Assembly: GCA_026399735.1 (NCBI GenBank)
Contig: JAPLQK010000110.1
Location: forward strand, 1-59,517
Direction of reading: 5' to 3'
Length of the DNA stretch: 59,517 nucleotides
Source: Pseudomonadota bacterium
GTDB taxonomy: Bacteria; Pseudomonadota; Gammaproteobacteria; Burkholderiales; Gallionellaceae
Shown in pieces: positions 17,368 through 47,951 of the stretch. The first letter of the stretch is position 1; every line of letters begins with the position of its first letter. A program made the translations under genes and the position numbers. The notes under the pieces were generated by a model. It ran no database searches. It saw only the letters and a list, made by a program, of their open reading frames with translations, and was not told the DNA's origin.

Positions 17368-18657
17368 TCACGTCAAAACGATGCGATTACGTCCGGACTC
17401 CTTGGCGGCGTAGAGATTTGCATCGGCAATTTTAAGCATGTCATCGAGACTGCCGGACGCCAGCCGGGTAATGCCGATACTGATGGTAAAAACGATCACG
17501 GCATCGTTAAATTTGACAGCAGAATGCGCCACCCGCTCGCGAAACGCTTCGCACTGACCCGCCGCCTTGTCCGCATCCGGGAACAGCAGAAAAAACTCCT
17601 CCCCGCCTACGCGTCCCACAAGTTGCGCATTGAAATACTCATCCAACAGGCGCGCAAAATGTTTGAGCACCACGTCACCCCCATCGTGACCGTAAAAGTC
17701 ATTGATTTTTTTGAAGAAATCGATGTCCATCACCGCAGCGGCCAACGTTCTGCCTGCACCGGCGGTCTCCTCAAACAACTTAACTCCTTGTTCGAAGAAG
17801 GCACGACGGTTATAAAGCCCGGTCAGATAATCGTGGTAGGCGATATAGCGCACCGACTCTATGCTTTCCTGCATTTCCAGGTTCTGAGTCACGCGACAGA
17901 CCAGTTCCTCATAACTGAACGGCTTGCAAATAAAATCATTCGCACCCAGCTTGAGAAACTGCGCGGACATCCGTGAATTTGCAGCACCTGACATACCGAT
18001 CACTGCAAGCCTGTCGCGAGCGTGCTTGCGGCGCACATTCGACAGAAAAGTGAAGCCGTCCATCACAGGCATTTCGTGATCGACCAGCACCAGTTTGATA
18101 TCCGGCTGCTGCGCCAGCTGGGCCAGCGCTTCCGCACCGTTACTGGCGGTAAGAACATTCAAGCCCTGTATCTGCAACATGCCTGAGATTAATCCACAAA
18201 AAGTTTGCGAGTCATCGACCACCAGCACCTTGACGTGCAGATTTCTGAACAGACGACCCACCAGTTCAACGACATACTCGTACGCATTGATACTGTCCTT
18301 GAGTACATAATCAACGACACCCCGACTCATGATCTTGTCGTGCATCGACTCATCGTACATACCGGTGATGGCGATCACCTTCAATTTGGCGGCGATCAGC
18401 ACATCGACCACCTCGCCATGCGAAGCATCGGGCAGATTCAGATCGCTGACCGCCACAAAGAACTGATGTTTGCCCTCATCGATAATAGCGCGCACCTGTG
18501 CCAGACTGGTGGCAATCAGCACACGACAGCCCCAGCGCTCATACAGCATTTTAGCCGCCATTTGCGCCAGCGAGCGCTGATCTTCGATCAGTAAAACCTG
18601 CAAATCCATCTCACCGTGCCTGGCGGATCGACGGGAGTTTGTACGCGTAATGGCCAT
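17368..18657 (-). CDS. REC-REC-GGDEF response regulator diguanylate cyclase (HsbD-position)
   Basis: 429 residues. REC1 spans about 18-135 (D72 as phospho-acceptor candidate, in SDLNLPD). REC2 spans about 142-260 (D193 in LVDHEMPVMDG). The GGDEF domain spans about 270-428 with active-site GGEEF at 351-355. It should make c-di-GMP in response to phosphorylation. No RxxD inhibitory site precedes the GGEEF motif, so product inhibition of the usual type is unlikely. REC1 lacks some acidic residues of the pocket and may be degenerate. It follows the REC-PP2C-HATPase gene by 17 bases, suggesting it is the c-di-GMP output of that partner-switching pair. An alternative start lies at 18609. Confidence 0.88.
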   Translation of the reverse strand: MAITRTNSRRSARHGEMDLQVLLIEDQRSLAQMAAKMLYERWGCRVLIATSLAQVRAIIDEGKHQFFVAVSDLNLPDASHGEVVDVLIAAKLKVIAITGMYDESMHDKIMSRGVVDYVLKDSINAYEYVVELVGRLFRNLHVKVLVVDDSQTFCGLISGMLQIQGLNVLTASNGAEALAQLAQQPDIKLVLVDHEMPVMDGFTFLSNVRRKHARDRLAVIGMSGAANSRMSAQFLKLGANDFICKPFSYEELVCRVTQNLEMQESIESVRYIAYHDYLTGLYNRRAFFEQGVKLFEETAGAGRTLAAAVMDIDFFKKINDFYGHDGGDVVLKHFARLLDEYFNAQLVGRVGGEEFFLLFPDADKAAGQCEAFRERVAHSAVKFNDAVIVFTISIGITRLASGSLDDMLKIADANLYAAKESGRNRIVLT

Positions 18658-18674
18658 TTATATATTTCCGTGCC

Positions 18675-20387
18675 TTATGCAGGCTTAGACAAGCCGACGT
18701 AAGCTTCCACTTCCGATCCGTTTCCGGAATATTGCAAGGCACTGCACATGCCCGACAGCAAGGCAATACCCCGTCCATGCCGCTGCTGGTTAGTTTGCAG
18801 ATCAGTAGTCAAACGCGTAGCGCAATCGAAACCTTCACCGCTGTCCTTCATTGAGACTTTCACGCAGCCGCAATCCAATTTATCCAGGCGCATCAGGATA
18901 TTTCCATCTTGCAACTCGGCCAGACGCGCAGCGCGCTCGGCAAAATAGAGTTCCATGCCGTCCGTTTGATTCTTCAGGGTCGAATCGAGTTTCAACACAC
19001 CATGATCCAGCGCATTGTTAAACAATTCGGACAACACCAGAAACAGTTTGCCGTCGGCTCTTCCGCCTTCGATCTGCCCGGCAATGTTGAGCAGAAAAGG
19101 CACCACATCCAGATATTTGAGTTGCTGTTCGGTGAGCAGCAGTGAAAATTTCCACAACGATTTCTCAGTCTCGCCATGAATGCATCCATCGCCGGCAACG
19201 CTACTCTGATTGATTCGCTCCTGGCTGATCAGAGGCGCACTCTTTTCAATAGCCGGAAAATCCACCACAATCAGCGCAATATCATCCACCGGCGGCAAGC
19301 CGCCCAGATGACCATCAAGCACATCGACCACACGGTCAAAAAATGCACCTGCATAAGACTGCACGGCGCCTGACAAGATGCCATCCTGCCCCAACGCCTG
19401 ACCATCGCCCAGACTGATTTCGCTCGCCCCGTCCGAGCACATCAGCAAACATCCAGGCGCCCTCCCCAATGTGTAATATTCCAGGCTCGCATCCATTTCA
19501 GTCGGCGTGACCACGCCCAATGGCAAATGCCTGGATTTGAAACGATGCACAACATCCGCGCCATCTGCACTTAGCAGCAACACCGGCGGACAACCACCGT
19601 TCCATACCTCCACGATTCCCGTTGCAGGATCCAGCGACAGCATCGCTGCGGCGACAAAACGCGGCAGCGGCAAATATTCGCGCACCCGCCGGTTGATTTC
19701 CCGGACAATCGCGGGAATATCAAAGCCCTTTGCGGTCATTTGATAAAACGGCTGGGTAATCGGAATCACTGACAAAGCGGCCGTCAGCCCATGCCCCGCG
19801 CTATCGGCCAGCAACACGTGCAGACAATTGTCCGGTCCGCGCGCCACCGCAATCAGGTCACCGCTGAAGCTTTCTGCCGGCTTGAGAATGAAACGTACCA
19901 ATGGATCATGGATTTTATCCAGTGCCGTGAACTGCTTGATAAAATCACGTGCAGTATCGGTTTCTTCATCAATGCGTTCCCGGTAATCCAGCAAACTCCG
20001 GTTCTGCTCGATGCGAACCTGAAAATTATGAATTTTCGCCTGCAAGATCTCATAATTAACCGGTTTGAACAGATAGTCATCCCCGCCCGCATGCATCCCC
20101 TCAATCACCTCCGCATTGCTGGTTTGTGCGGACAGAAACAGAATGGGAAACCAGTCAGGGTAGCGGCGGCGCATCTCGATCACCGTATCAAATCCGCTCA
20201 TCACGGGCATCGCCACATCCATCAACACCAGATCCGGCAAATTTTGCTCACACAAGGCGAGCGCATGGACGCCATCCTCTGCCAGCGTCACACGATGCCC
20301 CATTTTCCTGAGCATCGCCTGTATCAACTGACGATTGGTATTGGAGTCATCCACCGCCAGCACGTGAAGTGAAGTGTATGTACTCAT
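18675..20387 (-). CDS. HsbR-like REC-PP2C phosphatase-HATPase switch protein
   Basis: 570 residues from ATG at 20385-20387. The N-terminal REC domain has D57 in LMDVAMPVMSG. A SpoIIE/PP2C-type phosphatase (about 165-385) has ADSAGHGLTAA and MCSDGASEI. A C-terminal HATPase of the anti-sigma kinase type has ELFNNALDHG. This architecture matches HsbR of Pseudomonas aeruginosa, which controls the phosphorylation state of the STAS protein HsbA. Here the STAS gene lies 16 bases upstream and a GGDEF response regulator lies downstream. The predicted role is to phosphorylate or dephosphorylate the STAS partner depending on the REC state, adjusting flagellar gene expression and c-di-GMP. No HptB-like gene is present in the window. 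Confidence 0.85.
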   Translation of the reverse strand: MSTYTSLHVLAVDDSNTNRQLIQAMLRKMGHRVTLAEDGVHALALCEQNLPDLVLMDVAMPVMSGFDTVIEMRRRYPDWFPILFLSAQTSNAEVIEGMHAGGDDYLFKPVNYEILQAKIHNFQVRIEQNRSLLDYRERIDEETDTARDFIKQFTALDKIHDPLVRFILKPAESFSGDLIAVARGPDNCLHVLLADSAGHGLTAALSVIPITQPFYQMTAKGFDIPAIVREINRRVREYLPLPRFVAAAMLSLDPATGIVEVWNGGCPPVLLLSADGADVVHRFKSRHLPLGVVTPTEMDASLEYYTLGRAPGCLLMCSDGASEISLGDGQALGQDGILSGAVQSYAGAFFDRVVDVLDGHLGGLPPVDDIALIVVDFPAIEKSAPLISQERINQSSVAGDGCIHGETEKSLWKFSLLLTEQQLKYLDVVPFLLNIAGQIEGGRADGKLFLVLSELFNNALDHGVLKLDSTLKNQTDGMELYFAERAARLAELQDGNILMRLDKLDCGCVKVSMKDSGEGFDCATRLTTDLQTNQQRHGRGIALLSGMCSALQYSGNGSEVEAYVGLSKPA

Positions 20388-20403
20388 CAATGTGCCGTCC
20401 GGC

Positions 20404-20718
20404 TCAGGAAATAATCGAGAACAACTTACTGAAATTGGCGATATCAAGGATTTGCGCAACCGTGCTGCTGGGACGGCTTAAAACGACGGTCTTGCCCGCC
20501 GCCTGTGCGCGTTCACGCATCAGCATCATCATGCCCAGCGCAGAACTGTCGAGATATTCAATCCCGGCCATATCGATTTCCACCGTTTTTAATCCCGCCT
20601 GTTGCAACAACGGCTCATAAGCGGCCTTAAAAGTGCGGTGATCGTTAAAATCAAACCTGCCAGCCAGCCTGATGACCGCCCTGTCGCTCATACTTGTTGT
20701 ACTGATCTGCATTGCCAT
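20404..20718 (-). CDS. HsbA-like STAS anti-anti-sigma protein
   Basis: 104 residues, a single STAS domain. The phospho-acceptor loop reads IDMAGIEYLDSSALGMMML, with a Ser pair after the Asp as in SpoIIAA/HsbA. In P. aeruginosa, HsbA switches between binding FlgM (freeing FliA) and stimulating a diguanylate cyclase. Gene neighbours here (cheB upstream, HsbR-like and GGDEF downstream) support the same type of role. ATG at 20716-20718 follows AGGAG by nine bases; a longer frame to 20736 would swallow that site. Confidence 0.85.
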   Translation of the reverse strand: MAMQISTTSMSDRAVIRLAGRFDFNDHRTFKAAYEPLLQQAGLKTVEIDMAGIEYLDSSALGMMMLMRERAQAAGKTVVLSRPSSTVAQILDIANFSKLFSIIS

Positions 20719-20799
20719 AAAAACGCTCCTGTTCAACCCTGATTAACTGATACCCAACCCTTGTCCACGAAAATCACGAACAAAATTGAATTCGTAACT

Positions 20800-40493: not shown

Positions 40494-42563
40494 CTATTTT
40501 TGCGCGCACTTAGTCAACGGATAACCGGCTCTGCTCAACTCATCGGCAGATTTCGCCAGTTCTTTAGCAGCCGCCCTGGCATCCTGCACTGACTGCACGT
40601 TGTGACTGACGAGGCCGGAAATACGTTCCAGGCTGTGCGTAGCCCCCTCACCGGCCGCCGACTGATCGCGAGAAGCATTCGCAATATGCTCGACGCGTTG
40701 CGCCACATTGACAGCCGCGCCCATGATTTCCTTCAAACCTTCACCGTTTTTGCGTATCAGCGCAATGCCGGTCTCCACCTCGCCGACGGCACTGTGCATC
40801 GAATTCACTGCCGCATTGGAAATAGCCGTGATCTCGCCAATCGTCGTGGCAATATCCCGCGTGCTGGTGGCTGTGCGCTCCGCCAGTTTACGCACTTCAT
40901 CGGCCACTACCGCAAAACCACGCCCCTGCTCGCCGGCGCGCGCTGCCTCGATCGCAGCATTCAACGCCAGCAGATTGGTTTGTTCTGCGATATCCTTGAT
41001 GGCATTGGCGATGCTGCCGATCTTCTGGATAGATGCGCCAAGATCAGCGATCGCCCTGCTGGATGCGTCCACGGTTTGCGCCACTTTGCCGGTTGCCGTA
41101 ATACTCAGCTCCATGTTCTTATTATTTTCCTCGACGATGCTCTGCATCGCCCTGGCATCGTTAAGCGAATCCGCAGCCATGCGTGCGACTTCCGCGACGG
41201 ATTGACTGAATTGCTCCATCGTGGCGGCGATACTCTGAATATGGTCCTGCTCAGTCACGGCATTTTCAGCCACGCCAGTCACCCGGCCATCCACGTCGTT
41301 GATGCATCCCTGAATGTAAGCGACAGGGGTGACAATTTCATCCACCATGGTGCGCAAATAACATTGCATGGATTGGATTTCGCACAGCAACTTGCCCATC
41401 TCATCCTGTATCGTCACGTCAAGTTCGGTTTCAAGATTACCTTCCATGATATTGCGAAACTCTCTGTCTACATCAGCAAGTGGTTTGCGTATAAATTTAT
41501 CTACACAAAAACCGATGAAGAAATACAGGAACACCTGCAACAGCAACTGCCCTGTCACCATATGCAGCTCCATACGGTGAACACGTGCAAAGTCCGGTTT
41601 GAGATCGATCACAATATCGGATGCGCCCAAAACAACATGCTCCGCCACGAGATGGCAGGAAGTGCAATCCGTGCCGTGGAAATTTTTACTGGCCAGATAA
41701 GGCGTCACCACGCGCAGCTCGGGATCCCCCGCCGTATCAATCACAATTTTCTGCTGTTTACTCGCCAGAACCTGACGTTGCACATCATCAACCACCCCTT
41801 CTTCGGGCGATCCGGCACCGAATTGTGCAACCAGCTCAGGCGCACGAACCACGCGCGCCGACTTGACGTTGCCTGACGAAGTGACCTTTTCGATCATCAA
41901 CTTGCGATTGTTCACTTCGCTAATCTGCCCGGTCACCATCAACATATTTGCGCTGTCGATGATCTGATTGGCGATTAAATCGCCTTTTGCAGCGGAATTG
42001 TTTAAGACATCCTGCTTTTGCGCATCGGTCACGTACATTTGCGCCAGCGTTAAAATCACCAGCAGCGGGATTTGAATCGCGGTCTGCAACTTTCCTTTCA
42101 TCGACCAGTTTTTAATCTTGAAGCGTTCATATTTGGAGACGATCTGGCGACCCGATTGATTCAGTTCGCGATACAACGTTTCCGCCTGAGCAATCTGATT
42201 ACGCGTGGGCGCTTTGCGCACCGATACATAACCAATAATTTTACCGCCTTCGATGACAGGTGAGACGGTTGCACGCACCCAATAGTGATCACCACTCTTG
42301 CAGCGGTTCTTCACCATACCGCGCCAGGGGCGTTCAGCTTTCAGCGCATCCCACAGCCATTTGAATGCCTGCGGCGGCATGTCAGGATGGCGCACGATGT
42401 TGTGGCTTTTGCCGATCAGTTCGGCACGTGTATAGCCGGATATCCCGGTGAACGCATCATTGGTATAGGTGATAATGCCACGAGTATCGGTTTTGGTGAT
42501 CAACACCGTACCATTCGGAAAAAGCACTTCCTTTTGTGTCACGTGAGCGTGCTTGTTTTGCAT
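40494..42563 (-). CDS. Chemoreceptor with cytoplasmic PAS and periplasmic CxxCH haem domain
   Basis: 689 residues. Aer-type PAS (15-118; [19 protein letters not shown]), membrane segment near 160-178, periplasmic domain 180-335 with a c-type haem motif CTSCH (C300-H304), second membrane segment near 337-354, HAMP, a longer signalling domain with the standard hairpin tip. The periplasmic part resembles DUF3365/Tll0287-type haem sensors seen in histidine kinases and receptors. It should be exported and loaded with haem by the cytochrome c maturation system. Two sensing inputs (cytoplasmic PAS and periplasmic haem) suggest redox, oxygen or NO taxis. Its haem domain is related to the next gene's. 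Confidence 0.88.
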
Positions 42564-42604: not shown

Positions 42605-44239
42605 TTAAACCTTGAATCTTCCCACCGTTTTGGAAAGATTTTCTGAAATCAGTTTCATCTGACCGGTTTCTTCCACCGAGCGCTTAACCACTTGATTGCT
42701 GCTGTTTGCCATACTGGCGATGCGTTCAACATTGCGGGCGATTTCCTGACTGGCATCACGCTGCTGATTGATAGAACCTACGATTTCCTCCAGACCGCGA
42801 TTGACGCCATCAACTGAATCACTGGAAGCGTTCAGCACGCCCGTGACCTCACTGATATGCGCCTTGCTGCCTTGCAAGGCAACGATACCGCGCTGTATGG
42901 TTTTATCAACCTGCACCGATTGCACACCTATGGTTTGCGTTACTTCATCAATCTGCGATGCGGACAATGCGGACTTTTCAGCCAGCTTGCGCACTTCATC
43001 TGCCACGACGGCAAAGCCACGCCCCTGCTCACCGGCACGCGCAGCTTCAATTGCAGCATTCAATGCCAGCAGATTGGTTTGCTCGGCAATGTCGCGTACT
43101 TGCTGGGTCATATTGGTAATACTCTGAGTATTGCTGACAAACACACTGACTGAACTGGCGATTTCATTGACGGCACGCTCGACCTGTTCCAGCTCATGCA
43201 TCATCTCTTGCAGACTGCGCTGGCCTTGATGTGCGCGCTCAGCACTTTCCCCGGATAACTTGGCGACATGACCGGCACTTTCGGCCACGCGATTGATGCT
43301 CTGACTGACCTGACTCACCGCGCTTGAGGTACTGGATGCCGCATCGGTTTGCAGTTGCAATCCGTGCGCGATTTCTCCGGCATTTTCAGCCAGCCGCTGC
43401 GCTGACGAGACAACCTGCCCGGCATGGCCTTCGACCTGACTTACGATAACCTGGAAACTCTGCGCCAGATCGTTAAATGCCTGCGCCGTTTTGCCGATTT
43501 CATCCCCGCTATGGACAATGGCACGCTTAGAAAGATCACCGCTGGTCTGCATGGCCTGCATCGTGAGTTGCAACTCAAGCGCAGGGCGCGTCATGAAACC
43601 GATCAGCCAGCCGATAATGAAATACAGGAACACTTGCACGACCAGCTGAGCACCCCACAACGCATAATTTGCGCGGTGTATCATCGCAAATTCATCCGAC
43701 AGGTCAAACGTAATACTTGCCGCGCCATTCACCGTTCCCTCGGTGACGTTATGGCACATCAGGCAATTGGTGCCGCGAAACTCCTTGAGTGCAATAAAAG
43801 GCACAACCACACGCAGGGAACGTTTTTCGCTATTTTCAGATAATCTGGTTTGTACGCGGGCGGTGTCGAGCGCGGCATGATCCATCGCGTCGGTCGCTTG
43901 TTCCGAGGGCATTCCCGGACCGAATTGATCCTGAACGGGCTTGTTGCGTATCACACGCAATTCATTAACCTTATCCGATGCGGCCATTTTCTTAATGTAT
44001 AAGGCGCGCTGCTCGGTGTCGCTGATAATACCGTTAATCATCAGCATGTTAAGGCCATTCAATACGCCGTCCGCCGACACCAGCGCCTTTTGCTTTGCCT
44101 GTTCGAGCACCTGATTTTCGAACTTATCCAACGCTGTTTGCTGAGCGATGGACATCACCACCAGCAGGATAAATTGTATGGGAAACTGTAATTTGTTCTT
44201 AAGGGAGAGACTACTCCACCAATTGTTCATATCAAGCAT
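42605..44239 (-). CDS. Chemoreceptor with periplasmic CxxCH haem domain
   Basis: 544 residues. Membrane segment 16-34, periplasmic domain ~35-190 with c-type haem motif CLMCH (C159-H163), second membrane segment near 194-214, HAMP, and signalling domain with [21 protein letters not shown]. The sensor resembles that of the adjacent 689-residue receptor (shared [19 protein letters not shown] / [13 protein letters not shown] pattern), but it has no PAS domain. It is the first gene of the long minus-strand chemotaxis array and has a strong sigma-28 promoter 38 bases upstream. Expected role: redox or dissolved-gas taxis through periplasmic haem. Confidence 0.9.
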
Positions 44240-44713: not shown

Positions 44714-45703
44714 GTGAAATCAATCGAACTTCTGAGAATGGATTTAGCAATCGAATCCGATTTGCAGAATTTCGTCTGCTTTCTGATGGAAAGTGTAGAA
44801 CGCCTCCAGGGGAATGTTTTTCGTGCTTCACTGGCCTGTCTGAAATTGAATCAGCGCTTTCGTCTGGCGGGCGCCTGTTGCGGCCAAACCTTCCCGGTCA
44901 GCGCGCACCTGAAAAATCATCGTTTGCTGGTTCATTGGGATGAAAATGAGTATCCAATCGTTCAACTGGATACGGCAGAACCACCTATGATCGACCAGTT
45001 GCGTGATTACCTGCGCAAATCCACCGAATCCATCGATCCGGAAATTCTGATTCAACGCAATGAGGCGATGGCGCACCATTTGCATGAAACGCAGGTGCGC
45101 GCCGAACAGGAATTGGCCGGTTTGGAAGCCAAATTATTGCATCGTCAGACCCAGTTACAGATTTCAATACGTCAGGCTGAAACAGATCCGCTGACCGGCT
45201 TGCTCAACCGCCGTGCTTTTGACGAAAAACTGGATCTGGCGTTTCGCCACACCATGCGGCAAAAAAGTTCGCCGCTGTCGCTCATGATGCTGGATCTTGA
45301 TTATTTCAAGGACATCAACGATGAACATGGGCACCAGTATGGTGATAACTATTTGATTAAAATGGCAAAAATTATACTCAGCGTCATTCGCGAAGATGTG
45401 GATTACGCATTCCGTTTTGGCGGAGATGAATTTGCCATGATGATCCACTCCGACTATGTCACTGCCTGCGATAAAGCAAGACAAGTGATACAGCAGATGG
45501 ATGGCCGTGTCAGCATAGGCATCTCGACCATAGGGTCACACAGACATGACGATCTGACTCTGGAAGCGTTTATCCATCAGGCGGATAGCTCCCTGTACGA
45601 GGCAAAGCATCGGGGACGCGGTCGCGCAGTGGTGGGCGGATGCAGCATAAATGATGCCAAACTTTGTGGAACCGTATGCGCAATGAAAGAGTCCGGTGTC
45701 TGA
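44714..45703 (+). CDS. Diguanylate cyclase with uncharacterised N-terminal helical domain
   Basis: 329 residues. The N-terminal ~150 residues are soluble, have no known sensor motif and end in a coiled coil (QVRAEQELAGLEAKLLHRQTQ). The GGDEF domain follows from ~155 with TDPLTGLLNRRAF, LDLDYFKDINDEHGH and active-site GGDEF (236-240). It should make c-di-GMP. A canonical RxxD inhibitory site is not present at the usual position. The GTG start follows GGGG. Its stop overlaps the start of the RsbT/X-like gene, so it is coupled to a partner-switching module and is the likely output enzyme. Confidence 0.88.
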   Translation: MKSIELLRMDLAIESDLQNFVCFLMESVERLQGNVFRASLACLKLNQRFRLAGACCGQTFPVSAHLKNHRLLVHWDENEYPIVQLDTAEPPMIDQLRDYLRKSTESIDPEILIQRNEAMAHHLHETQVRAEQELAGLEAKLLHRQTQLQISIRQAETDPLTGLLNRRAFDEKLDLAFRHTMRQKSSPLSLMMLDLDYFKDINDEHGHQYGDNYLIKMAKIILSVIREDVDYAFRFGGDEFAMMIHSDYVTACDKARQVIQQMDGRVSIGISTIGSHRHDDLTLEAFIHQADSSLYEAKHRGRGRAVVGGCSINDAKLCGTVCAMKESGV

Positions 45704-46733
45704 CGTATTCGACAGTGCAGTTGATTGCAAACTGCTATTCAATAACGCAACGCAAAGCGAAAGCGCCCTGATTCTGCTGCGCTCGAAACTGACTGCGATC
45801 ACCCGGCGTCTCGGCGTGAGCAGCCTGAAGCGAGAAAATTTACTGCTGGTTGCTTCAGAGCTGGTCAGCAATAACGTCAAACACGCCGCCGGGAGAGGCA
45901 TGGTGCAACTATGGCAACAGCCGGGGCGCGTACTGGATCTGCTTTCGCTGGACTACGGCCCTGGCATCCCTGATCTTTCAACAGCCGAAGCAGATGGATA
46001 TTCGACGTCCAGCACATTGGGCAAGGGCCTGGGTGCAATCCGCCGTTTGAGCGATGAATCGTATATCTATACACAACGCTCAGGTCAGCTGAAAAAATGG
46101 ACCGGCACGGTGATACTTGCCCGCTTCTATCTGGACCAGGAATGCAAGGAAGCAAAGTCAGGTTTCAAATTCGGTTTGTACTCACGCGCGCTGTCTGACG
46201 AACGTTACAACGGCGATCGAATCTATCTGCAAAGAACCGGAAAATTATTGCGCTGGCTGCATCTGGACGGGTTGGGACACGGCGAAGAGGCGCAAGAGGC
46301 AACGGCCGACCTGGCGGCTCACCTGATCAACTACGAATCACCCGAGAGCATCCTGTCAACGGTGGACAGGCAACTCACAACCACGCGCGGCGCTGTCGCC
46401 ATCACCGGCGAAATTGATCTGGCTAAATTTACGCTACGCCTGTCCGGGGTGGGCGATATGAGTGCGCATATATACAATCAGGAACAGATTCAGCAAATCA
46501 CATTTGCGCCCGGAATTCTGGGTCGGGAACATCGTTCTGCGACAGTATTTCAGACCGATTTTGGCAAAAAATCTGTCATCGTCACCGCGAGCGATGGCAT
46601 ACGCAGAAATTGGGACATGGCCAATTTTTCCGGCTTGTTCAACCAGCATCCGCAGTTGATTGCGTATACGCTGGGTAATATCATGGGGCGGATCTCGGAT
46701 GATCAGTCAGTTTGCGTTTGTACAATAGGATAA
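45696..46733 (+). CDS. RsbT-like kinase fused to RsbX/SpoIIE-like phosphatase
   Basis: 345 residues. Residues ~20-140 form a small HATPase of the RsbT/RsbW type: N-box ELVSNNVKHA (N60), G1 DYGPGIPDL, G2 GKGLGAIRRL. Residues ~150-345 form a PP2C-like phosphatase with LDGLGHGEEA and TASDGIRRNW, as in RsbX and SpoIIE. In Bacillus stressosomes, RsbT phosphorylates RsbR and RsbS and RsbX reverses this. Here both activities would be in one chain. The start is GTG at 45696, overlapping the GGDEF gene stop by eight bases. RsbR- and RsbS-like genes follow. Confidence 0.82.
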   Translation: MSDVFDSAVDCKLLFNNATQSESALILLRSKLTAITRRLGVSSLKRENLLLVASELVSNNVKHAAGRGMVQLWQQPGRVLDLLSLDYGPGIPDLSTAEADGYSTSSTLGKGLGAIRRLSDESYIYTQRSGQLKKWTGTVILARFYLDQECKEAKSGFKFGLYSRALSDERYNGDRIYLQRTGKLLRWLHLDGLGHGEEAQEATADLAAHLINYESPESILSTVDRQLTTTRGAVAITGEIDLAKFTLRLSGVGDMSAHIYNQEQIQQITFAPGILGREHRSATVFQTDFGKKSVIVTASDGIRRNWDMANFSGLFNQHPQLIAYTLGNIMGRISDDQSVCVCTIG

Positions 46734-46752
46734 TCGGATAAAGGAAAAAATA

Positions 46753-47616
46753 ATGACGCAAGAGTTCAGCGAGAAATTGGTCACATTGTTCAGTTTGAAA
46801 ATCGGCAATATTTCCGGGCAACTGGAAGAAACCGGGCGGGAATTCTTCTGTGCGGATAATAAACTGATGGATGAGGACGAAATCGCCGATCTCTCCTGCG
46901 AATTCGTCAACCTGATCGTCGGCTTGCTGAGCGCCAAAGATCCGAATAAACGCACCTCGCCGCAATTTCACGCGCTGGAGATGTTCTTTTCGGGGTTTGC
47001 GCAACGCATGTTGATGCGCGGCGGCAATGTGGAAGATGTGGTGCGTTATGCGCAGCAGTTGCAATACAGCCTGATTACCGCACTGGAAAGCGACAGCGGA
47101 ATCATCTTTACCCAGTCGCGTTCGGTACTGCTGTATTTCGCGCAACTGTTCGACGAACTGATCATGGCAATCTTTCGCACCTATCTTGGCGAGCGTGAAA
47201 GAACGCTCAAAGCGCAGGAAGCCGAATTGCGCGAGACCTCCACCCCGATTACTGAAATATGGGATGGCGTGTTGACGCTACCCATCATCGGCACATTAGA
47301 CTCAAGTCGAACCATGCTGGTCATGGAGGCGTTGCTTAACCGCATTGCCAAAGACCATGCACGCGCTGTCGTGATGGATTTAACCGGCGTGAAGAATATC
47401 GATTCACAGGTTTCGCACCACCTGATTCAAATGGTGCGAGCCGTGCAATTGATGGGCGCGGATGCGATCATCACGGGCATCCACCCGGAAATCGCGCGTG
47501 CGCTGGTCAGCCTGAACATCGATTTGACCGGCATCACAACCCGCGCAAGCCTGTCTGACGGCCTGAAGGAAGCCTTTTTGCGCATGGGCATCCAGGTCAG
47601 CCATAAAGCCGTCTGA
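46753..47616 (+). CDS. RsbR-like stressosome protein (N-terminal sensor plus STAS)
   Basis: 287 residues. A non-haem, globin-like helical N-terminal region (~1-155) precedes a STAS domain (~165-285): PIIGTLDSSRTMLVMEALL, MDLTGVKNIDSQVSHHLI, ITGIHPEIARALVSLNIDL. Positions equivalent to the two RsbRA phosphorylation sites are kept as S218 (IDS) and Thr at 262-263. RsbR proteins build the stressosome core with RsbS and sense input through the N-terminal domain. AAGGA precedes ATG. The stop overlaps the next start by one base (TGATG). Confidence 0.85.
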   Translation: MTQEFSEKLVTLFSLKIGNISGQLEETGREFFCADNKLMDEDEIADLSCEFVNLIVGLLSAKDPNKRTSPQFHALEMFFSGFAQRMLMRGGNVEDVVRYAQQLQYSLITALESDSGIIFTQSRSVLLYFAQLFDELIMAIFRTYLGERERTLKAQEAELRETSTPITEIWDGVLTLPIIGTLDSSRTMLVMEALLNRIAKDHARAVVMDLTGVKNIDSQVSHHLIQMVRAVQLMGADAIITGIHPEIARALVSLNIDLTGITTRASLSDGLKEAFLRMGIQVSHKAV

Positions 47617-47951
47617 TGAGTATTCCAGGCATACACCTGACCTGTATCGGCCGCGGCAATTACCTGCTCGAGCCGCTGCGCAGCCTGAATATTCAAAATA
47701 GCGGGCAGATAATGCAGGATGTCGTTGCGCTGTTACAACAGGAAAAGGCGAGGCGACTGTATTATGACCTGAATGGGCTACCTGTCATTGACCCTGCATA
47801 TTACGACTGGCTGGACAAGCTGGCGCGCATTTGCCTGACGGTAAACATCAAAATGATCTGTATCAATATGCAACCGACAGCAGCATTCACCTTATCCAGT
47901 TTTCTTGCCGGCAAACCGGCATTCGCAACCGCGCTGGGGGTTCCGGACTAA
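47616..47951 (+). CDS. RsbS-like single STAS protein with Pro at the phospho-site
   Basis: 111 residues, one STAS domain that aligns end to end with Bacillus RsbS by eye (YYDLNGLPVIDPAYYDWLDKL against the VIDLTSVDMIDSFIAKVL region; NMQPTAAFTLSSFLAG against GIQPAVAVTLIELG). The serine that RsbT phosphorylates in RsbS is replaced by proline here (P60). It therefore cannot be switched in the classical way. It may be a structural partner of the RsbR-like protein or use another site. Coupled to the rsbR-like gene by TGATG. Confidence 0.78.
   Translation: MSIPGIHLTCIGRGNYLLEPLRSLNIQNSGQIMQDVVALLQQEKARRLYYDLNGLPVIDPAYYDWLDKLARICLTVNIKMICINMQPTAAFTLSSFLAGKPAFATALGVPD

Follow-up and report, generated by a model that had tools for sequence, protein, structure and literature searches.

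The 59,517-nucleotide contig JAPLQK010000110.1 of a bacterium of the Gallionellaceae (assembly GCA_026399735.1), referred to here in its whole length as the window, carries at positions 44714 to 47951 of the plus strand four genes that encode a diguanylate cyclase (DGC), a single chain of an HATPase (kinase) and a PP2C phosphatase of the RsbX type (KP), an RsbR-like protein (R), and an RsbS-like protein (S). The gene order and the catalytic residues are conserved, R retains a phosphorylation site that S has lost, and no separate RsbT gene belongs to the module. The best reading of this arrangement, to which we give somewhat better than an even chance, is a self-contained partner switch derived from a stressosome and dedicated to one cyclase, in which R would be the phosphoswitch controlling synthesis of cyclic di-GMP (c-di-GMP).

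Four genes in a conserved order

An original prediction, made from the letters of the window, had proposed a stressosome-like module at this place, and all four of its genes are present and free of internal stop codons. DGC (44714 to 45703, 329 amino acids [aa]) and KP (45696 to 46733, 345 aa) both start with GTG and are followed by R (46753 to 47616, 287 aa) and S (47616 to 47951, 111 aa). DGC and KP overlap by 8 nucleotides (nt), 19 nt separate KP from R, and R and S overlap by 1 nt.

Related loci were gathered with KP or S as bait, which gave a set of 27 including the window; a 28th (L122) was added from a later search, and a further S match in genome G015, a fragment at a contig end, was left out of the set. 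In all 27 loci and in L122, the four genes lie on one strand in the order DGC-KP-R-S, and across the 27 they often overlap or nearly touch. Because the same four genes recur in the same order throughout, chance is excluded as an explanation, and the grouping proposed for the window holds elsewhere. Among flanking open reading frames of at least 100 aa, each family turned up in at most 4 of the 27 loci, so that the unit that is kept is the four genes; recurring neighbors that might hint at a target of the module were likewise absent above this number.

As the 27 loci had been selected on KP or S, a class sample of 369 genomes provides the fairer test of co-occurrence. KP was found in 17 of these genomes at an E value of 1e-25 or better, with 16 of the matches better than 1e-90. 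The N-terminal domain of DGC was also found in 17, and its 16 credible matches fall in the same 16 genomes as the strong KP matches, which span 12 families. S was detected in 15 genomes, all of them among these 16; in the remaining one (G414), DGC and KP run off the end of the contig. The 17th KP match (G371) and a PP2C-only match in G086 belong to ordinary stressosome modules. The 17th match of the N-terminal domain (G125) is a chance match of 21.3 bits to an unrelated protein, presumably HypF, and a single match to this profile at about 20 bits is therefore weak. Within the genus of the window the distribution is patchy, with S in 9 of 37 genomes, one of the 9 being the G015 fragment. Named KP matches came from four metagenome-assembled genomes labeled Gallionella sp. 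or Gallionellaceae (81 to 84% identity) and from a fifth labeled Proteobacteria (79%).

R keeps its phosphorylation site and S has lost the corresponding serine

By profile, R and S both belong to the stressosome type of STAS proteins, as originally proposed. R of the window matches the Pfam STAS family at 2.5e-14, and the best match of the R family profile is the solved stressosome RsbR in 7o0i (1.4e-39). The structural model of R has its best fold match in the Listeria stressosome 7b0u (2.1e-12), with a TM-score of just 0.42 over the full length. The N-terminal part of R is predicted to be helical (mean predicted local distance difference test [pLDDT] 78.8) and is joined by a linker helix to the STAS domain; RsbRD_N was matched in this part in 12 of 27 members (best, 5.8e-5), the R of the window not being among them. 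For S of the window the Pfam STAS match reaches 1.9e-4 (21.6 bits, just under the 22.6-bit cutoff). The nearest match of the S family profile is RsbS (3e-6), which settles the STAS identity of S; the profile is also related to the STAS domain of R.

To compare phosphosites, we used the alignment columns that we take to correspond to T171 and T205 of RsbRA and S59 of RsbS in Bacillus subtilis. At the T171 position, R of the window has S218 (codon at 47404 to 47406), and the family has D-S in 24 of 27 members and D-T in the other 3; R thus appears to carry a phosphorylatable residue there in every member. The T205 position is Ala in 24 of 27 and Ser in 3. At the S59 position, S of the window has P60 (codon at 47793 to 47795), and the residue that follows the Asp across the 27 members is Pro (9), Gln (7), Glu (3), Arg (3), Thr (2), Asn (1), Lys (1), or Ala (1); S of L122 has Asp. 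RsbS proteins from ordinary modules, which served as controls, have Ser at this position in 18 of 19 cases and Thr in 1. By this alignment, S lacks the phosphorylatable serine of a stressosome RsbS. Loss of the S phosphoserine together with retention of the R site is a feature that the original prediction missed.

In B. subtilis, RsbT phosphorylates T171 of RsbRA and then S59 of RsbS, and phosphorylation of S59 is tied to the release of RsbT (PMC3944199). Without a phosphorylatable serine in S, this textbook step cannot run as such in the module. In V. brasiliensis, the B. subtilis RsbS sites are reported as not conserved (PMC4976288), and the S59 site may thus not strictly define the RsbS family. 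Directly after the lost phosphosite, residues 62 to 66 of S (window numbering) read Y-Y-x-W-L, with Y62, W65, and L66 conserved in at least 90% of members; this motif may mark a rebuilt binding face.

KP joins a kinase and an RsbX-type phosphatase in one chain

In KP of the window, Pfam recognizes HATPase_c_2 at 5.6e-8 and SpoIIE/PP2C at 2.2e-4 (21.7 bits, under the 25-bit cutoff). The identity of the second half is settled by the family profile, which matches the SpoIIE-type chain 3zt9, which we take to be MtX, at 7.5e-21 and RsbX (3w40) at 5.4e-11. One article (PMC7647112) cites 3ZT9 for the cyclase MtG, and the PDB lists 3zt9 as a 193-residue SpoIIE-type protein. The HATPase_c_2 domain (45768 to 46067; residues 25 to 124) has E55, N59, K62, D86, G88, G90, G109, G111, and G113 invariant in 27 of 27 members, and in the RsbX-type PP2C domain (46152 to 46715; about residues 153 to 340) the same holds for G173-D174, D191, G194-H195-G196, D300-G301, and D335-D336. 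Kinase and phosphatase are therefore parts of a single polypeptide with all checked catalytic residues kept, as had been predicted, and the C-terminal half of KP would supply the RsbX-type feedback phosphatase of a stressosome.

The further description of KP as a fused RsbT-RsbX is not borne out for its kinase half. A tree was built from 42 HATPase sequences (27 KP, 10 RsbT, and 5 second HATPases of ordinary modules), in which all 27 KP domains form a clade of their own (support 100/99) and do not group with RsbT. Their mean identity to RsbT (28.5%) is about the same as that to the second HATPases (28.8%), and the latter two groups are themselves not cleanly separated in this tree. We conclude that, on sequence, the HATPase of KP is not demonstrably RsbT. 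No separate RsbT was found in any of the 28 module stretches, the window being represented by a 20-kb part: KP was the sole HATPase recovered with the KP profile or with the RsbT and second-HATPase profiles at 1e-3. The module thus seems to lack the separate switch kinase of a stressosome.

A diguanylate cyclase with an N-terminal domain of its own

The GGDEF domain of DGC is recognized by Pfam at 3.6e-35. The GGDEF signature (45419 to 45433; residues 236 to 240) is invariant in 27 of 27 members, as are K199 and D203, which we take to be the neighboring catalytic residues; by these residues, DGC is probably an active cyclase. The usual inhibitory-site motif before GGDEF is RxxD. In DGC, RxxxD stands upstream of the signature in 27 of 27 members (45389 to 45433 in the window) and RxxD at the canonical spacing in none, and product inhibition may therefore differ. 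In the C-terminal tail (45641 to 45700), three spaced cysteines (C-x7-C-x3-C in the window) occur also in closer loci and are missing in distant copies; they are a possible metal or redox site.

The N-terminal domain, described in the original prediction as helical and of unknown type, is alpha/beta in the AlphaFold model (mean pLDDT 88.5), with a strand, two helices, three strands, and a helix (44714 to 45028; residues 1 to 105), followed by one long helix, probably a coiled coil, that leads to the GGDEF domain (45038 to 45181; residues 109 to 156). The description as helical thus does not hold, while the statement that no recognized family accounts for the domain does: residues 1 to 106 had no credible counterpart in Pfam or among PDB sequences. 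In a fold search with the whole protein, the best 50 of 955 matches were cyclase structures or GGDEF fusions, which do not identify the N-terminal domain; SiaD with its activator SiaC (7e6g) was among the best, probably through the GGDEF domain and helix. Assignment as a zinc finger was rejected, since the weak C2H2 matches came from one member of 27 and the cysteines are not kept in distant members.

We also considered the module as a natural stressosome derivative in which S would be unphosphorylatable at the RsbS site and the N terminus of the cyclase would be a degenerate, nucleotide-free RsbT-like domain that competes for the R-S core with the KP HATPase, which would make the output enzyme the switching partner itself. 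Set against the topology of HATPase domains, the predicted strand-helix-helix-strand-strand order of the domain resembles their start. A single hidden Markov model (HMM) match linked the N-terminal profile to the HATPase of a stressosome output kinase in L130 (3.4e-5), and a profile-profile match reached P = 8e-4 with the linker included, the match lying in the helical linker. When the domain without its linker was compared by hhalign with the KP HATPases, RsbT, and all HATPases, the result was null; against the output-kinase HATPases, 5 of 60 column shuffles scored equally high; and in reciprocal HMM searches between the domain and HATPases, shuffled sequences ranked as high as real ones. The degenerate-HATPase assignment was rejected on these grounds, and we consider the derivative built on it improbable.

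Comparison with ordinary stressosome modules

An ordinary set of 20 stretches with whole or partial stressosome genes was assembled from RsbT and KP searches (L085, L086, L098 to L105, and L123 to L132); L102 has an HATPase only, and L103 and L104 have no R within the stretch. Seventeen genomes of the phylum, that of the window included, had a KP match, and 10 ordinary ones and L122 were taken from these. In complete ordinary modules, R-S-T is followed by PP2C, by separate HATPase and PP2C genes, or by an HATPase-PP2C fusion. Such a fusion adjoins a separate RsbT in 11 of the 20 stretches (L085 and L123 to L132); all 11 came from searches with KP as bait, and they demonstrate existence, not frequency. 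The kinase-phosphatase fusion that the original prediction had singled out thus occurs in ordinary modules as well. The features that distinguish the present module are its lack of a separate RsbT, the missing S site, its own cyclase, and the reversed order already pointed out in that prediction, DGC-KP-R-S as against R-S-T-X and then the output. Proteobacterial rsbRSTX modules, in Vibrio and others, share with it a STAS core and an RsbX-type phosphatase beside outputs that include c-di-GMP proteins (PMC9237108), and differ in their separate RsbT, in Ser or Thr at the RsbS site (19 of 19), and in their gene order.

In 6 of the 11 fusion stretches, the gene after the fusion encodes an N-terminal HATPase_c_2-like domain and a linker that in some of them carries a QNREL-like motif (L085, 7426 to 9597; L127, 6620 to 8461; L128, 6200 to 8602; L130, 6383 to 7618; L131, 6444 to 8270; L132, 6402 to 8222). 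The remainder of these proteins is presumably a histidine kinase, and the six appear to have an RsbT-like domain built into an output protein. Genomes G086 (L038 and L086) and G142 (L037 and L100) each carry both a DGC module and an ordinary R-S-T-X module, and would allow cross talk between the two types to be studied.

Relation to known partner switches

In Moorella thermoacetica, whose genes we take to be named MtR-MtS-MtT-MtX-MtG, the kinase and the phosphatase are separate proteins. The same RsbR, RsbS, HATPase, and RsbX-type parts occur there with a diguanylate cyclase output (PMC7647112, PMC4976288, PMC12143880). MtS is reported to be phosphorylated (PMC7647112), whereas the S site is absent from the module, and the Moorella-type RsbU_N docking domain was not found on the cyclase in the 27 DGC members. 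Predicted c-di-GMP outputs have been described in stressosome modules of Vibrio, Chromobacterium, and Herbaspirillum (PMC9237108), and PMC12143880 cites the Moorella case; a c-di-GMP output, put forward in the original prediction as a departure from the textbook, was thus already known.

In SiaABCD of Pseudomonas aeruginosa, phosphorylation of a partner protein is linked to a GGDEF cyclase, as it would be in the module; SiaC is the one partner there, where the module has R and S, and SiaA and SiaB are not joined in one chain. HsbR, in contrast, has kinase and phosphatase in one chain, together with a receiver domain. The HsbR-HsbA-HsbD (P. aeruginosa) and SypE-SypA (Vibrio fischeri) systems have in common with the module a one-chain kinase and phosphatase, which in these systems acts on a STAS protein, with a DGC output in Hsb (PMC7647112, PMC12826045); they differ in the receiver domain of SypE and in having no RsbR-RsbS pair. 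Partner switches acting on cyclases include HsbA-HsbD, BgrV-BgrR, and MtT-MtG (PMC7647112) and, from the title of PDB entry 7e6g, SiaC-SiaD. By sequence, the module has the parts of the Sia and Hsb type, namely kinase and phosphatase, STAS-type partners (RsbR- and RsbS-like), and a DGC. Among the papers listed from the open-access literature searched, in two cases the first 20 of 33 and of 175 matches, no title or abstract start points to the four-gene module; that literature excludes most subscription papers, and the result is no proof of novelty.

Proposed mechanism and alternatives

For the module we infer phosphotransfer, complex formation, and partner exchange with a direction, as follows. 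The HATPase of KP would phosphorylate S218 in the STAS domain of R, and the PP2C domain of KP would remove the phosphate. R would sense a cue through its helical N-terminal domain, with S as a STAS scaffold partner that is itself not switched. The phosphorylation state of R would then set whether the R-S core binds the HATPase of KP or the N-terminal domain and coiled coil of DGC, and with it the level of c-di-GMP synthesis. The unphosphorylated STAS state is expected to activate the cyclase, by analogy with SiaC-SiaD and HsbA-HsbD. A write-and-erase enzyme, one R phosphosite, a STAS scaffold that lacks a site, and a cyclase with a dedicated N-terminal domain together fit an R-driven partner switch.

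Several points weigh against this proposal. The contact between the R-S core and DGC is one that we infer, and the direction of activation is borrowed from the Sia and Hsb systems. The N-terminal domain of DGC appears to be without a recognized relative, and RsbU_N is absent from the Pfam matches of the 27 members, whether the whole protein or its N-terminal part is scanned. In two of the 27 S proteins the S59 position is occupied by Thr, and the statement that the site is lost covers that one position, not every Ser and Thr of S. The same genome has HATPase and STAS genes beyond KP, R, and S. Finally, in Moorella it is reportedly the kinase that binds the cyclase and attenuates it (PMC7647112).

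One alternative is a release of the stressosome type, in which the R-S core would hold KP through its HATPase until a signal frees KP to bind the N-terminal domain of DGC and alter its activity, much as in the case of MtT and MtG; the release would be driven by allostery and by phosphorylation of R, and not by that of S. That R and S are stressosome STAS proteins speaks for this alternative, and B. subtilis stressosomes with RsbS S59A still signal under strong stress (PMC3944199), so that a kinase might yet be freed from a core that lacks the S site. DGC, however, has no RsbU_N match, RsbU_N being the domain by which RsbT acts on RsbU and, reportedly, in Moorella too (PMC12143880), and KP has a tethered phosphatase and falls outside the RsbT clade. 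We regard such a release as possible but rather unlikely. It is very unlikely that KP targets another STAS protein or that DGC is controlled otherwise, with the operon a mere coexpression unit: the genome does offer further STAS and HATPase genes, some of them in a module at 17 to 21 kb of the window (see below), but the strict co-occurrence and order in 12 families of the class sample and the variable flanks, which leave the four genes as the kept unit, argue against it. An ordinary rsbRSTX module with an unusual gene order, as the homology of R, S, and X might suggest, seems a shade less probable still. It is disfavored by the lost S site (no phosphosite Ser in 27 of 27 S proteins, against Ser or Thr in 19 of 19 ordinary RsbS) and by the absence of a separate RsbT-like gene from 28 of 28 module stretches, and the KP clade is separate from RsbT.

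Surroundings of the module in the window

Upstream of DGC lies a chemoreceptor gene on the opposite strand, and downstream of S lies a helicase gene that we take to be DinG-like. Two minus-strand chemoreceptor genes (40494 to 42563 and 42605 to 44239) have a CxxCH motif in their sensor parts (CTSCH and CLMCH); we assume the motif to be that of c-type heme proteins, in which case these could be redox-sensing chemoreceptors. The Pfam scan of this pair covered the second gene (42605 to 44239). Promoter and terminator scans gave no more sites than in shuffled sequences, and comparison of P0003 with plasmids gave only matches below 60% identity. In L041, L045, and L046, the module stands between two genes that we presume to be ferredoxin-like and MutS-like.

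A second, putative partner-switch module that resembles HsbR-HsbA occupies 17368 to 20736 on the minus strand of the window. It comprises a REC-PP2C-HATPase protein (18675 to 20459), a single STAS protein with a D-S site (20404 to 20736), and a REC-REC-GGDEF protein (17368 to 18657); the adjoining genes are presumably cheB, cheD, flhA, and flhB.

Significance

Overall, the original interpretation is partly supported. Stressosome control of c-di-GMP was already known, and the module looks like a variant of the stressosome found in environmental bacteria. Phosphorylation of RsbS at S59 has been suggested to be an evolutionary addition to an older stressosome mechanism (PMC3944199). A module that has the R site and lacks the S site, present in 12 families of the class sample, would let this idea be tested in a natural system, and the readout would be directly enzymatic, as c-di-GMP, instead of a sigma-factor cascade. 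For the Gallionellaceae and other bacteria, the module would be a compact four-gene candidate for how a cue is linked to c-di-GMP.

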